From positions 1-48,428 of the forward strand of contig JALEGJ010000068.1 of the NCBI GenBank assembly GCA_022763115.1: a stretch of DNA of 48,428 nucleotides, in the 5' to 3' direction. This stretch comes from Aquisalinus sp. Its GTDB lineage: Bacteria; Pseudomonadota; Alphaproteobacteria; Caulobacterales; Parvularculaceae. A program made the translations under genes and the position numbers. How positions within the stretch are numbered: position 1 is the first letter of the stretch; every line of letters begins with the position of its first letter. This document shows, in pieces, positions 12,722-17,111 of this stretch. A model generated the notes under the pieces. That model searched no databases and was not told the DNA's origin. It saw only the letters and a list, made by a program, of their open reading frames with translations.

Positions 12722-13942
12722 CTAGCGGTCAATCTCGCCGAACACGATATCGAGTGTGCCGATGATAGCTGACACGTCAGCGAGCATGTGGCCCTTGTTC
12801 ATCCAGTCCATCGCCTGCAAATGCGCATATCCCGGGGCGCGGATCTTGCACCTGTAAGGTTTGTTACTGCCGTCCGAAACGAGGAACACTCCGAACTCTC
12901 CCTTCGGTGCCTCCACTGCGGCGTAGACCTCACCGGCCGGCACTTTCGGGCCTTCCGTGTACAGCTTGAAGTGATGGATCAGCGCTTCCATGGATTCTTT
13001 CATGTCACCCCGACGTGGCGGTGCAACCTTGCCATCCGTGGACATGACAGGGCCCGGCTCGATCTTGGCGAGGCACTGTTTGATGATCGACAAGGACTGC
13101 TTCATTTCCTCCACGCGGCAAAGATAGCGATCATAGCAATCGCCGTTCTTGCCAAGCGGGATATCAAACTCCAGCTCATCGTAAATTTCGTAAGGCTGGC
13201 TCTTGCGCAAGTCCCAGGCGACGCCAGAACCGCGCAACATGACCCCTGTGAAGCCCCAGTCAAAGGCCTCCTCTTTCGAGACGACACCAATATCGGCATT
13301 ACGCTGCTTGAAGATACGGTTATCAGTAATCAGCGTTTCAATATCATCCAGAACGCGCGGAAACTCGTCACACCATTGACCAATATCATCGAGCAATTCC
13401 TGCGGAAGATCCTGATGCACACCGCCAACACGGAAATAAGCAGCGTGCATGCGGCTGCCACAGGCACGCTCGTAAAACACCATCAATTTCTCACGCTCTT
13501 CAAAGCCCCAGAGCGGTGGGGTCAGTGCCCCTACATCCATAGCCTGCGTCGTGATGTTCAGAATATGCGACAGGAGGCGGCCAATCTCGGAATAGATCAC
13601 ACGGATGATCTGCCCCCGGCGCGGCACTTCGATATCGAGCAGTTTCTCCGCCGCGAGACAGAAGGCGTGCTCCTGATTCATCGGCGCCACATAGTCGAGC
13701 CGGTCAAAATACGGGATCGCCTGCATGTAGGTCTTATGTTCGATCAGCTTTTCCGTACCACGGTGCAGAAGGCCAATATGAGGGTCGACGCGCTCGACGA
13801 CTTCCCCGTCAAGCTCGAGGACCAGACGCAACACGCCATGCGCTGCAGGATGCTGCGGCCCGAAATTGATCGTGAAATTGCGCTCCGAAGACGCATCGGA
13901 AGCTGAGTCAGTCACTTCGACTATACGTGTACCATCAGCCAT
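12722..13942 (-). CDS. nuoD: NADH-quinone oxidoreductase subunit D (49-kDa, quinone site)
   Basis: NuoD shares the ubiquinone pocket with NuoB. The N-terminal signature [19 protein letters not shown] is followed by [12 protein letters not shown] and by MNQEHAF near residue 105. Later motifs are [14 protein letters not shown] and a C-terminal [12 protein letters not shown]. The length of 406 residues is normal. The start ATG at 13942 has a strong GGAGG seven bases upstream. Upstream lies the four-helix-bundle element, which separates it from nuoC. Confidence 0.98.
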
Positions 13943-13963
13943 TTTGTACGCCTCCGGCGTTTA

Positions 13964-13984
13964 GTGAATGGTGAGTTGTGAGTG
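13964..13984. repeat. Inverted-repeat arm, distal to the four-helix-bundle gene
   Basis: GTGAATGGTGAGTTGTGAGTG on the plus strand. Apart from one bulged base and one A/G change it is the inverse complement of 14377-14398, so the two arms enclose the whole gene between them and could pair in the nuo transcript. Confidence 0.85.
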
Positions 13985-13996
13985 GTGATTGGTTCG

Positions 13997-14383
13997 TCAC
14001 TGTTTTCCTCCGCGCCGCATCAGTGAGCGGATCAGACCATTTAGCATCTTACCGATGCGCGTAATTTTCTCCAGCTGCTGTTTTGCTGGATCTTGCCCCA
14101 GAAAGTTAAGGCGCTCTGCGAGCATTGTCTGGGTTTCAAGCTCCTTGAGGGACCCTTGAGCAATTCTAAGAAACTGGATGAATGCCGCTGTCGTCTCCCG
14201 GCCATACCCTTCAGCGATGTTACTTGCAATCGATACTGATGCACGACGCATTTGCGCGGTTAATCCGTACATTTCAGTATTTGGAAAGCGAGAAGTCGCT
14301 CGGTAAACGTCTACGCTTAATTCCATCGAAAACTTCCATACATCAAGGTCTCGGTAATCTGTGATTTTCTCTGTGTCATTCAC
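13997..14383 (-). CDS. Four-helix-bundle protein, 23S rRNA intervening-sequence (S23/IVP) family
   Basis: The 128-residue protein has the family pattern DLDVWKFSMELSVDVY near the N-terminus, then LTAQMRRASVSIASNIAEGYGR and a helical QFLRIAQGSLKELETQ segment. The family forms homopentameric four-helix bundles. Members are encoded in rRNA intervening sequences or act as Avd partners of diversity-generating retroelements. No reverse transcriptase is present here. It starts with GTG at 14383 inside the inverted-repeat arm, with AGGTGA just upstream; the ATG that overlaps it is out of frame. The start is seven bases from the GFA stop. Function unknown. Confidence 0.9.
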   Translation of the reverse strand: MNDTEKITDYRDLDVWKFSMELSVDVYRATSRFPNTEMYGLTAQMRRASVSIASNIAEGYGRETTAAFIQFLRIAQGSLKELETQTMLAERLNFLGQDPAKQQLEKITRIGKMLNGLIRSLMRRGGKQ

Positions 14384-14398
14384 AACTCACCTATTCAC
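14377..14398. repeat. Inverted-repeat arm, proximal to the four-helix-bundle gene
   Basis: Read on the minus strand this arm is GTGAAT, a single extra A, GGTGAGTTGTGA, then ATG. It matches the arm at 13964-13984 in inverted orientation with one bulge and one mismatch. It overlaps the stop codon of the GFA gene (14391-14393) and the GTG start of the inner gene. Confidence 0.85.
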
Positions 14399-14810
14399 CA
14401 TTCGCTGCGAATGCAGCAATCACTTCCGCCCCGGTCATTTGTTTTGTGTGCTGCGTAAATGAATGCCAGTCCGGCTTTTCGTCGATGAAGATTTCCTTGA
14501 CGAGTTCAAAGCCGCTTGCATCCGACAACGCGGTGACGGAGATATTCGCGTGGCTGCCGTCCTGCATACGCCAGAAAAGGCTGGAGCCACATTTCTTGCA
14601 GAAGCCACGCTCTCCCCACTCAGAGGCGCGATAAAGTCCGAGGTCCGGACTGTCACTGACCTCAAGGTCGCTGCATTCCGTGAGAATGGTGATGCCGCCA
14701 GCCCATGTCTGACACATATGGCAATGGCAGATTTCAGCATGGCGCGCATCTATAGTCGCCTGAAACTGGACGCTTCCGCAAAGGCATTTTCCAGAGACTG
14801 TCTCTGCCAT
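14391..14810 (-). CDS. GFA-family zinc protein
   Basis: The 139-residue protein has the zinc-binding pattern of the GFA/CENP-V family: KCLCGSVQF at the N-terminus, CHCHMCQTW near residue 28, and FCKKCGSSLFW near residue 70. The name comes from glutathione-dependent formaldehyde-activating enzyme, but most members have no proven reaction. It starts three bases after the nuoC stop and ends inside the inverted-repeat arm. It may have lost or gained its last residues (FAANGE) when the element inserted. Confidence 0.9.
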   Translation of the reverse strand: MAETVSGKCLCGSVQFQATIDARHAEICHCHMCQTWAGGITILTECSDLEVSDSPDLGLYRASEWGERGFCKKCGSSLFWRMQDGSHANISVTALSDASGFELVKEIFIDEKPDWHSFTQHTKQMTGAEVIAAFAANGE

Positions 14811-14813
14811 GGC

Positions 14814-15413
14814 TCAACTTGCCTTTTCGTCACCCGGAAGCTCGTATTCCGCCCCTTCCCAGGGAGAGAGATAGTCGAAATTGCGGTATTCCTGTGTCAG
14901 TTTGACTGGCTCGTACACGACGCGGGCTTGCTCATCATCATAACGCACTTCCACATGGCCCGTCAGCGGGAAGTCCTTTCGTAAGGGATACCCTTCGAAA
15001 CCGTAATCCGTGAGAATGCGGCGCAGATCCGGGTGGCCCTCAAACTGGATACCGTACATGTCGAAGGCTTCTCGCTCGAACCAGTCCGCACAGGGGAAAA
15101 CATCAATCGCCGTGGGAATATTCTCGCCCTCGGCAACAGGCGCCTTGACCCGGATTCGCTGGTTGTTGTGCATACTCAGCAGATGATAGACCACATCGAA
15201 GCGCTTGCTGCGCTCGGGATAGTCCACACCGCACAAGTCGATGAGCTGGATAAAACGGCACAGGCGGTCGTCACGCAGGAATTTGAGCACCGGCACGATC
15301 GTGTTGGCGCTGACCGTGAGCGTCAACTCATCATATTCAAGCTTCGCCGCCGAGAGGTCTTCCCCCAGCTTCGCCTCGATATGCTCTTTCAATTCAATAA
15401 GGTCTTCGTTCAT
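14814..15413 (-). CDS. nuoC: NADH-quinone oxidoreductase subunit C (30-kDa)
   Basis: NuoC is a structural subunit of the hydrophilic arm next to NuoD. The 199-residue protein has the family motif [20 protein letters not shown], then [20 protein letters not shown]. The length is normal and it is not fused to NuoD. It is separated from nuoB by two TonB-C-domain genes. The 104-bp gap upstream contains a palindrome and a -10-like box, so it may have a local promoter. The ATG at 15413 has GAGACC upstream. Confidence 0.98.
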
Positions 15414-15517: not shown

Positions 15518-16006
15518 TTATTGCCCCAGAGGGTTAGACAGGTTTGGTCCATAATCATCCTGCAGGATAAACACAAAGGTTGTGCGCGCCTTTCTGTACA
15601 ACGGGGCGGGTGTAGCTTCTCCCTCATACGTATACTGGAACCCGCGCACTGACATTGCTGCATACTCATCGAAACAGGGATGCGCACTTCTGACGACACA
15701 GATGTTATGAGGCCCCTTCTCCATGTCTATATCAAACTGAATAGTCGTTCTATGCTCAATGTCTGTCGGCATGAATTGGCAACGATTTGGATATGGTGGA
15801 GGTGTAGCGCTTATACGCCGGTAACCCTCGGGCTGGTCGTTTTCAGCGATTTCCAGCTCGGCTTCAGTGCAATATGGCGGCGCTTCGGGTGGTATTATTT
15901 GACTAAGCGCTATCTCTGCTTCCCGAGGATTGGTGTGATAAAGGTAAGCGATAACAGCTATGCTTATGATAATTATGGATAGTAGTGTTAGCAGGAATGT
16001 ACGCAT
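15518..16006 (-). CDS. TonB C-terminal-domain-like protein, membrane anchored
   Basis: The 162-residue protein has an N-terminal membrane span (LLTLLSIIIISIAVIAYLY) and a C-terminal half resembling the TonB C-terminal domain: PPPYPNRCQF, then IQFDIDMEKGPHNICVVRS and a conserved-looking FDEYAAMSVRGFQYTY. TonB proteins couple the inner-membrane proton gradient to outer-membrane transport, but there is no ExbB/ExbD and the linker is very short, so energy transduction is doubtful. The next gene upstream encodes a second protein with the same domain. Base composition is lower in G+C than in nuoC. Confidence 0.68.
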   Translation of the reverse strand: MRTFLLTLLSIIIISIAVIAYLYHTNPREAEIALSQIIPPEAPPYCTEAELEIAENDQPEGYRRISATPPPYPNRCQFMPTDIEHRTTIQFDIDMEKGPHNICVVRSAHPCFDEYAAMSVRGFQYTYEGEATPAPLYRKARTTFVFILQDDYGPNLSNPLGQ

Positions 16007-16046
16007 AGTGACACCTTGGAAGTAACGACTGCCCCTTAACTACTTT

Positions 16047-17111
16047 CTACTCCTCAAGGCGAAAAACGAATACCGTTTCTACGTCAGGATGTATAACGGG
16101 CTCACCGTTCACCAGCTTTGGCTTGTATATCCATTGCTGAACCGCCTTGATTGCCGGCCTTGCGAGACAGTCATAGTCACTCTCCACCACGCGCGCATTA
16201 TCTACCTTGCCAGTCGGCATGACATCAAATCTAACTTTAATCCTTAAATTCTCCCCGACGGGTGTGCGATCTACATTTTGGCAACCGTCTGGGTACTCAG
16301 GCGGGAAGCGCCGTTCAACCACGGCATTTCGGTTTCTTTGCGCAATCCCAAGTATATCAAATGTGGACGCATCTATACGCGCTACATCCGGGAGCTGTCC
16401 TGCGGAGAAATCATAACGTTCCTCTTGGGGAAAAGCTTGATTATAGGCAGAATACAATTCTTGCCTCCTATCATTCTCTCCCAACTCGTAATAGATACTA
16501 TCCAATATGCCAAAAAACGATTTCTCAGGTTCGAATATAGGCTGAAATACAGCTGCATAAGCAGGTTCTTTAGCAGCTGAAAACTTTTCCTGCGCATAGA
16601 GTGAAGCCGCGTATCTAAACTTTGTATGCCGTTGTATTGGCTGGCTTTTTTCTTCTGCTCTTGTGATAATCTGCCCTAGTATTCGTTCTGCATCGTCATA
16701 AAATCCGTACGCAAAGTAAATAAATGAGGCCAAGCCCACAATGTCCTGATCTCTATCCACACCGAGTGCATTTAATGAGAACGCCGCCTCCAGATCATCA
16801 ACTGCGGCTCCATAGTCTACTGGCTCTGTTTTCAGGACATAGCCTGCTCGAGCCTCCAGCAGCGTAGCTTTATCCTTAGGACAAATGTCCTTACTATTAA
16901 GAAACTCTGTTATTTCAGCAATAGCTCTAACATTTTCATCGGAAGTGTTTTGATAGCGATTGATTTTCTTTAGAAAATCTTGAGTTTCTTCTTGCAGAAA
17001 TATTGTTCTGCAATCTTTATCTTCCTGAGCGAATGCCACAGTCGGCAGATAGAGAATATTGACCACAAATACGGCCAATATTGCCGGAATAATATCAAAC
17101 CCTTTTACCAT
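16047..17111 (-). CDS. Secreted repeat protein with TonB C-terminal domain
   Basis: The 354-residue protein has a signal peptide (IIPAILAVFVVNILYLPTV, cleavage near AFA-Q). A helical middle region has TPR-like features. The C-terminal TonB-type domain shows FPPEYPDGCQ, IKVRFDVMPTGKVDNARVV and AVQQWIYKPKLVNG. It resembles periplasmic TonB-C proteins rather than a true TonB, since there is no Pro-rich spacer after a membrane anchor. The composition is strikingly AT-rich: 18 of 60 bases in 16921-16980 are G or C, against 40 of 60 in a sampled line of nuoD. This suggests acquisition. It lies between nuoB and nuoC in their orientation. Confidence 0.72.
   Translation of the reverse strand: MVKGFDIIPAILAVFVVNILYLPTVAFAQEDKDCRTIFLQEETQDFLKKINRYQNTSDENVRAIAEITEFLNSKDICPKDKATLLEARAGYVLKTEPVDYGAAVDDLEAAFSLNALGVDRDQDIVGLASFIYFAYGFYDDAERILGQIITRAEEKSQPIQRHTKFRYAASLYAQEKFSAAKEPAYAAVFQPIFEPEKSFFGILDSIYYELGENDRRQELYSAYNQAFPQEERYDFSAGQLPDVARIDASTFDILGIAQRNRNAVVERRFPPEYPDGCQNVDRTPVGENLRIKVRFDVMPTGKVDNARVVESDYDCLARPAIKAVQQWIYKPKLVNGEPVIHPDVETVFVFRLEE

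Follow-up and report, generated by a model that had tools for sequence, protein, structure and literature searches.

An S23/IVP gene at the nuoC/nuoD junction of Aquisalinus sp. is one copy of a widespread class bounded by inverted 7- or 8-base arrays

Structure of the nuoC/nuoD locus

The S23/IVP gene found in the window (the whole 48,428-nt stretch of Aquisalinus sp. DNA analysed here) is one copy of a widespread class in which an S23 gene is enclosed by inverted arrays of tandem 7- or 8-base repeats. Inverted arrays with a matched unit are present at both ends of the window element, with some degeneracy of the repeats. Judged from sequence, the locus is fairly likely to be a promoterless, transcript-borne element resembling the intervening sequences (IVSs) of rRNA, with arms that would pair in the mRNA and probably be cut by RNase III. 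None of the three parts (S23 protein, rRNA IVSs, heptamer arrays) is new by itself, but their union as a cross-phylum class appears to be; no link between S23 and heptamer arrays was found in the literature covered, open-access PMC only, which is weak evidence of absence. An architecture common to many phyla joins two puzzles, the origin of rRNA IVSs and the heptamer repeats of bacteria. The locus comprises the following features.

14814–15413, minus strand: nuoC (Complex1_30kDa; PF00329, 165.6 bits), upstream host gene
14391–14810, minus strand: GFA-family gene (PF04828, 55.7 bits), last codons and stop within the upstream arm
14377–14406, minus strand: upstream arm, degenerate tandem heptamers AGCGAAT-GGTGAAT-A-GGTGAGT-TGTGAAT-G (from sequence, inverted repeat and fold)
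13997–14383, minus strand: S23/IVP four-helix-bundle gene, 128 aa, GTG start (PF05635, 130.5 bits; NF008911, 162.6; TIGR02436, 127.9)
13963–13992, minus strand: downstream arm (plus strand AGTGAAT-GGTGAGT-TGTGAGT-GGTGATT-GG), complementary to the upstream arm in the transcript
13948–13960, minus strand: small palindrome ACGCC-GGA-GGCGT with the nuoD Shine-Dalgarno (from sequence and fold; similar ones elsewhere)
12722–13942, minus strand: nuoD (Complex1_49kDa; PF00346, 419 bits), downstream host gene

Gene order on the minus strand is nuoC, the GFA-family gene, the S23/IVP gene (cut-off for an S23 call with PF05635, 33.8 bits) and nuoD, and the S23 gene is in sense with its neighbours, GFA, S23 and nuoD all being on the minus strand. 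The whole element (arms plus S23 gene) spans ~430 bp, is present as a single copy in the genome, and has the S23 ORF as the sole ORF of at least 70 aa between its arms. The inverted repeat with one bulge and one mismatch that the initial annotation had described tightly around the S23 gene was recovered, and with it the IVS-like plan, an S23 ORF (PF05635) enclosed by a long inverted repeat able to form a stem. Its placing of the GFA stop, the ribosome-binding site and the S23 start in the outer (upstream) arm is likewise borne out by the sequence: this arm contains the GFA stop (14393–14391), a Shine-Dalgarno-like AGGTGA and the S23 GTG start (14383–14381).

The key feature of the arms, overlooked in that annotation, is that they consist of tandem 7-base repeats. 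In the sense (minus) strand the upstream arm (14406–14377) reads AGCGAATGGTGAATAGGTGAGTTGTGAATG and the downstream arm (13992–13963) reads CCAATCACCACTCACAACTCACCATTCACT, both being degenerate tandem heptamer arrays with units GTGAATG/GTGAGTT/GTGAGTG. The match at lag 7 is 12/21 upstream and 17/21 downstream, a modest level from which we take the window copy to be degenerate. The downstream arm contains the only two matches in the window to a three-unit heptamer pattern (0.07 expected by chance in 48 kb), and the rest of the window genome has none with up to one mismatch allowed. The arms pair across ~22 bp, interrupted by the bulge and the mismatch. Folded by itself, the stem has a predicted energy of −29.2 kcal/mol (z = −7.7 against 200 shuffles), and folding of the full 481-nt region (z = −2.2) retains it in the MFE and centroid structures alike. 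Elsewhere in the window, two ORFs (162 aa, and 354 aa with TonB_C; 15518–17111) lie between nuoB and nuoC, so the nuo operon is interrupted there too, besides the GFA and S23 genes.

S23 elements with arrays across phyla

Within the family, 31 S23 copies were identified at several sites in 22 of 62 genomes, a sporadic presence like that of IVSs. The flanks of 30 of these copies were read, and contain heptamers in tandem that run in opposite orientation at either end, the word varying by element (GGGGATT, GGGGACT, AGGTTGC, GGCAGTA, GGGCAAT, GCGAATA, GTGCGTA and GTGAATG). Self-match in these flanks is 0.776 at lag 7; outside lags 7 and 14 it stays at 0.42–0.48.

Scanning the contigs of genomes gave 80 diverse S23 loci, their hosts spanning many bacterial phyla as well as archaea (Methanophagales). 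With a threshold of at least 16/21 match at lag 7, a 7-base array is present in 84/158 S23 flanks versus 47/1553 control windows taken at these loci (p about 1e-63, Fisher test). Arrays of 7 or 8 bases were found on at least one side at 67 of the 80 loci, the other 13 having no clear array on either side. Inverted local alignment of the arms gave a median score of 35.5 within elements and 16 between elements. Further S23 genes with such repeats at their borders, which the initial annotation had suggested looking for, are numerous across bacterial phyla and archaea.

Heptamer arrays also occur without S23. In a second alphaproteobacterial genus, 30 of the 41 genomes carry GGCAGTA arrays (0 for a control pattern), and the 20 array sites that were read have no S23 gene between the repeats, many being inverted pairs with a short loop; one genome (G368) carries arrays and lacks S23 altogether. 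Beside gene ends in one alphaproteobacterial genus (L194–L213), numerous short-looped inverted pairs of heptamers without S23 look like small non-autonomous relatives or terminators. The abundance of S23-free arrays in some genomes (see also PMC4692102) would fit independent simple-sequence repeats, with S23 genes merely landing in heptamer arrays or persisting beside them. We give this explanation little credence, since the arms are inverted and have a common unit within an element, units follow both protein clade and unit length, and the window unit forms no further array in its genome.

Repeat units are element-specific and matched between ends

Units were compared among 79 non-redundant 7-base elements. 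The mean distance between units (in positions) is 1.11 for the two ends of one element and 3.11 between elements, random heptamers giving 3.66, and a weak consensus, T[AG]G[TGC][GC]A[GA], is common to the units. In 55 of the 73 untied cases the two ends of an element resemble each other more closely than they do the nearest related element, with the reverse in 18 (p = 1.7e-5), which indicates that the two ends of an element change together. This joint change may reflect selection for pairing or arm-to-arm copying, the data fitting either. Snap-back copying of host flank, at which the nuo elements of one genus had hinted, was rejected because the inverted match generally stops at the arrays (own 9.35, cross 8.52).

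Unit similarity tracks protein similarity (Mantel r = 0.27, 0/2000 permutations). In some clades the unit at either end is of 8 bases, e.g. TAGGGCAG, with TAGGCAG in the sister clade, and a second S23 subfamily has the 8-base unit GAGGAACT at both ends. Unit length (7 or 8) clusters on the S23 tree, with 11 changes versus 29 for shuffled labels. In a group of S23 elements apparently at one site (L158, L162, L164, L175, L180, L184–L187, L219, L221 and L225), an extra G has turned the 7-base GGCAGTA into an 8-base unit in both arms, a natural case of paired change in two arms.

Relation to rRNA intervening sequences and proposed mechanism

IVSs of rRNA are removed from the RNA by RNase III with no ligation afterwards. 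The Coxiella IVS is 428 nt long with a 28-bp stem containing one mismatch and a bulge, the stem is cut by RNase III, and IVS function and origin are described as unclear (PMC4990558). Elements of the present class resemble the rRNA IVSs of Coxiella and Leptospira in having an S23 ORF in the loop of an inverted repeat, a similar size, optional presence and location on the sense strand of a host transcript. The window element differs in lying between protein genes rather than in a 16S or 23S rRNA helix, and in having arms made of tandem heptamers. Two S23 copies in one genome (L149 and L150), which we take to be embedded in 23S rRNA from the conserved flanking sequence, have identical surroundings and a stem of TCAGGAA/TCAGGGA heptamers. 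Such stems in 23S-embedded copies make classical IVSs and the operon elements look like one kind. A search of 398 genomes with the L149/L150 protein gave strong matches in the same genome only, with weaker ones besides. None of the 80 diverse S23 loci matches the 23S flanks of L149; the non-rRNA location of the window element, between GFA and nuoD, which the initial annotation had treated as an oddity, thus stands as a location but is the rule rather than the exception.

In the mechanism that we favour, the S23 gene, presumably without a promoter of its own, would ride in sense orientation within a host transcription unit. Folding predicts that the arms form a long-range stem in the transcript with the S23 ORF in the loop, and this prediction is supported by the arms staying matched while the unit drifts. 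By analogy with rRNA IVSs, which have the same family of protein and, in the single instance here, a heptamer stem, RNase III probably cuts this stem, which would release the loop and divide the mRNA between upstream and downstream genes. If stems are cut, many bacterial operons hold an optional mRNA cleavage site overlooked by annotation. With the upstream stop only 7 nt before its start, S23 probably owes its translation to ribosomes that reinitiate after the upstream gene, and pairing of the arms would hide the S23 start. The protein itself probably binds the arms or the looped RNA or DNA, serving persistence or spread of the element, an action suggested by selection on the protein and by its co-inheritance with unit sequence and length.

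A more tentative extension, which we consider possible but on the doubtful side, is that S23 and its arms constitute a self-perpetuating two-part system that actively keeps or makes the arrays identical and is the source of rRNA IVSs and of many dispersed heptamer and octamer arrays. Were this true, the repeat word would drift among elements, with both ends changing together. Cyanobacterial STRRs are tandem heptamers comparable to the arrays of Xanthomonas and Nostoc. In the latter two genera, GGGNATC / GGGGA(C/T)T arrays (Rehm 2015, PMC4692102) are like those described here in being intergenic tandem heptamers near stop codons, mostly transcribed and, in Xanthomonas, often in inverted pairs (70–75 cases), but are described as G-quadruplex repeats, generally without mobile-element association and with no link to S23; that paper names no source element for the arrays.

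Orientation and selection on S23

Both neighbouring genes are co-directional with S23 at 108 loci and both opposite at 2, neighbour strand being assigned by a coding-composition score that misassigned a few upstream genes, the window's own included; some of the cases with neighbours of mixed orientation are also scoring errors. This score replaced strand assignment by longest ORF, which proved unreliable in GC-rich DNA. The sense bias could reflect selection rather than mechanism. For S23, dN/dS is 0.03–0.15 (20 pairs with estimable dS), and such strong purifying selection implies that the protein matters to something. Copies L020, L029, L164 and L217 have an in-frame stop, so decaying S23 copies exist alongside strongly conserved ones.

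The nearest solved relative of the window protein is PDB 2gsc (96 bits), the title of which, as it appears in a reference quoted in PMC10053308, concerns the quaternary structure of five four-helix bundles. The four-helix bundle of S23 is homologous to Avd/bAvd of diversity-generating retroelements (30.4 bits with bAvd, under a cut-off of 40 bits). In contrast to Avd systems, the window genome has no reverse transcriptase (no PF00078 match in an assembly 95.6% complete), which speaks against retro-mobility through a resident enzyme.

Gain, loss and replacement at the nuoC/nuoD junction

Of the five further genomes in the window's genus, only one contains S23. In the closest relative examined (L034; 90.7% and 91.7% DNA identity on the two sides of the site) there is a clean empty site of the kind that the initial annotation had proposed seeking in close relatives, GFA running straight into nuoD with stop and start overlapping, and with a GFA 3′ end that differs from that of the window. 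GFA/nuoD without S23 is found in L035, and nuoC/nuoD with neither GFA nor S23 in L036 and L037, while L038 has nuoC-S23-nuoD and no GFA. The empty site and the S23-free junctions within one genus indicate that the element is optional here. No recombinase or partner enzyme was identified, nor a target-site duplication, for which the boundaries are blurred by differences of the GFA 3′ end and nuoD leader from the empty site.

In the second alphaproteobacterial genus, 30 nuoD loci were read, and junction states were called where nuoC was recognisable. These comprise empty junctions (two forms), S23 elements of type GTAGTGA or GTGAATG, and other small inserts; one junction (L243, genome G379) has a GTGAATG-type 3′ flank with the element absent, a probable near-precise deletion or excision scar. 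The states (empty, A-type, B-type and other) are interspersed across the nuoCD tree of this genus. Within one genus, the divergence between elements of the same type is close to that of the adjoining nuo genes, with the exception of the pairs L251/L254 and L250/L256, which are more alike than their flanks. Divergence similar to that of the nuo flanks speaks against a recent transposition burst and points to old presence with repeated loss and replacement and some transfer. On S23 trees the window protein pairs with that of L002, apart from the main alphaproteobacterial nuo-site group, the forks near the window having moderate support (SH-aLRT 87–88). This pairing argues against a single ancestral insertion at nuoC/nuoD, and there were probably at least two gains. 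Mobility as suggested in the initial annotation is thus upheld in the sense that elements were repeatedly gained, lost and replaced in the course of evolution, with no recent burst of copies seen.

Inverted ends, patchy distribution, empty sites, the near-precise scar at L243 and the MITE-like S23-less inverted pairs would also suit a DNA transposable element, with the arms as terminal inverted repeats, S23 as an unrecognised mobility factor and RNA folding as incidental. This is unlikely: an orientation bias of 108 versus 2 is not expected without selection, no transposase motif, target duplication or burst of near-identical copies was seen, and the ends differ among elements, whereas transposases usually need fixed ends. 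The window element likewise has neither the transposase nor the fixed shared terminal repeats of DNA transposons, IS or MITEs. Compared with MITE/REPIN-type elements, the class shares inverted repeats and has short S23-less versions, but S23 elements encode a conserved protein and their end sequence differs among elements.

Retention by the host must also be weighed, S23 and stem then being a regulatory module that splits or attenuates operons and tunes the downstream genes. Strong purifying selection on S23, recurrence at the same junctions (nuoC/nuoD, murB/ddl) and a stem able to occlude start codons are in keeping with such a module, which is nevertheless improbable given the scattered presence at nuoC/nuoD on the nuoCD tree of one genus with interleaved states, the differing S23 types at one junction, and insertion sites that are many and functionally unrelated. 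A transcript-borne, IVS-like element is the reading that we retain.

Different small ORFs occupy the nuoC/nuoD junction in L235 and L238, one with a short GGCAGTAGAG remnant, so this junction takes insertions repeatedly. A palindrome in the nuoD leader, with the Shine-Dalgarno in or near its loop, was noted in the window and in L002, L004–L006, L011, L019–L021 and L157. It takes the forms ACGCC-GGA-GGCGT, TTTGCC-GGA-GGCAAA, GCACC-GGA-GGTGC and AACGC-GGA-GCGTT, the stem sequence differing among loci with pairing apparently preserved, and is present at element-bearing nuo junctions and absent from the compact empty junctions of the window's genus.
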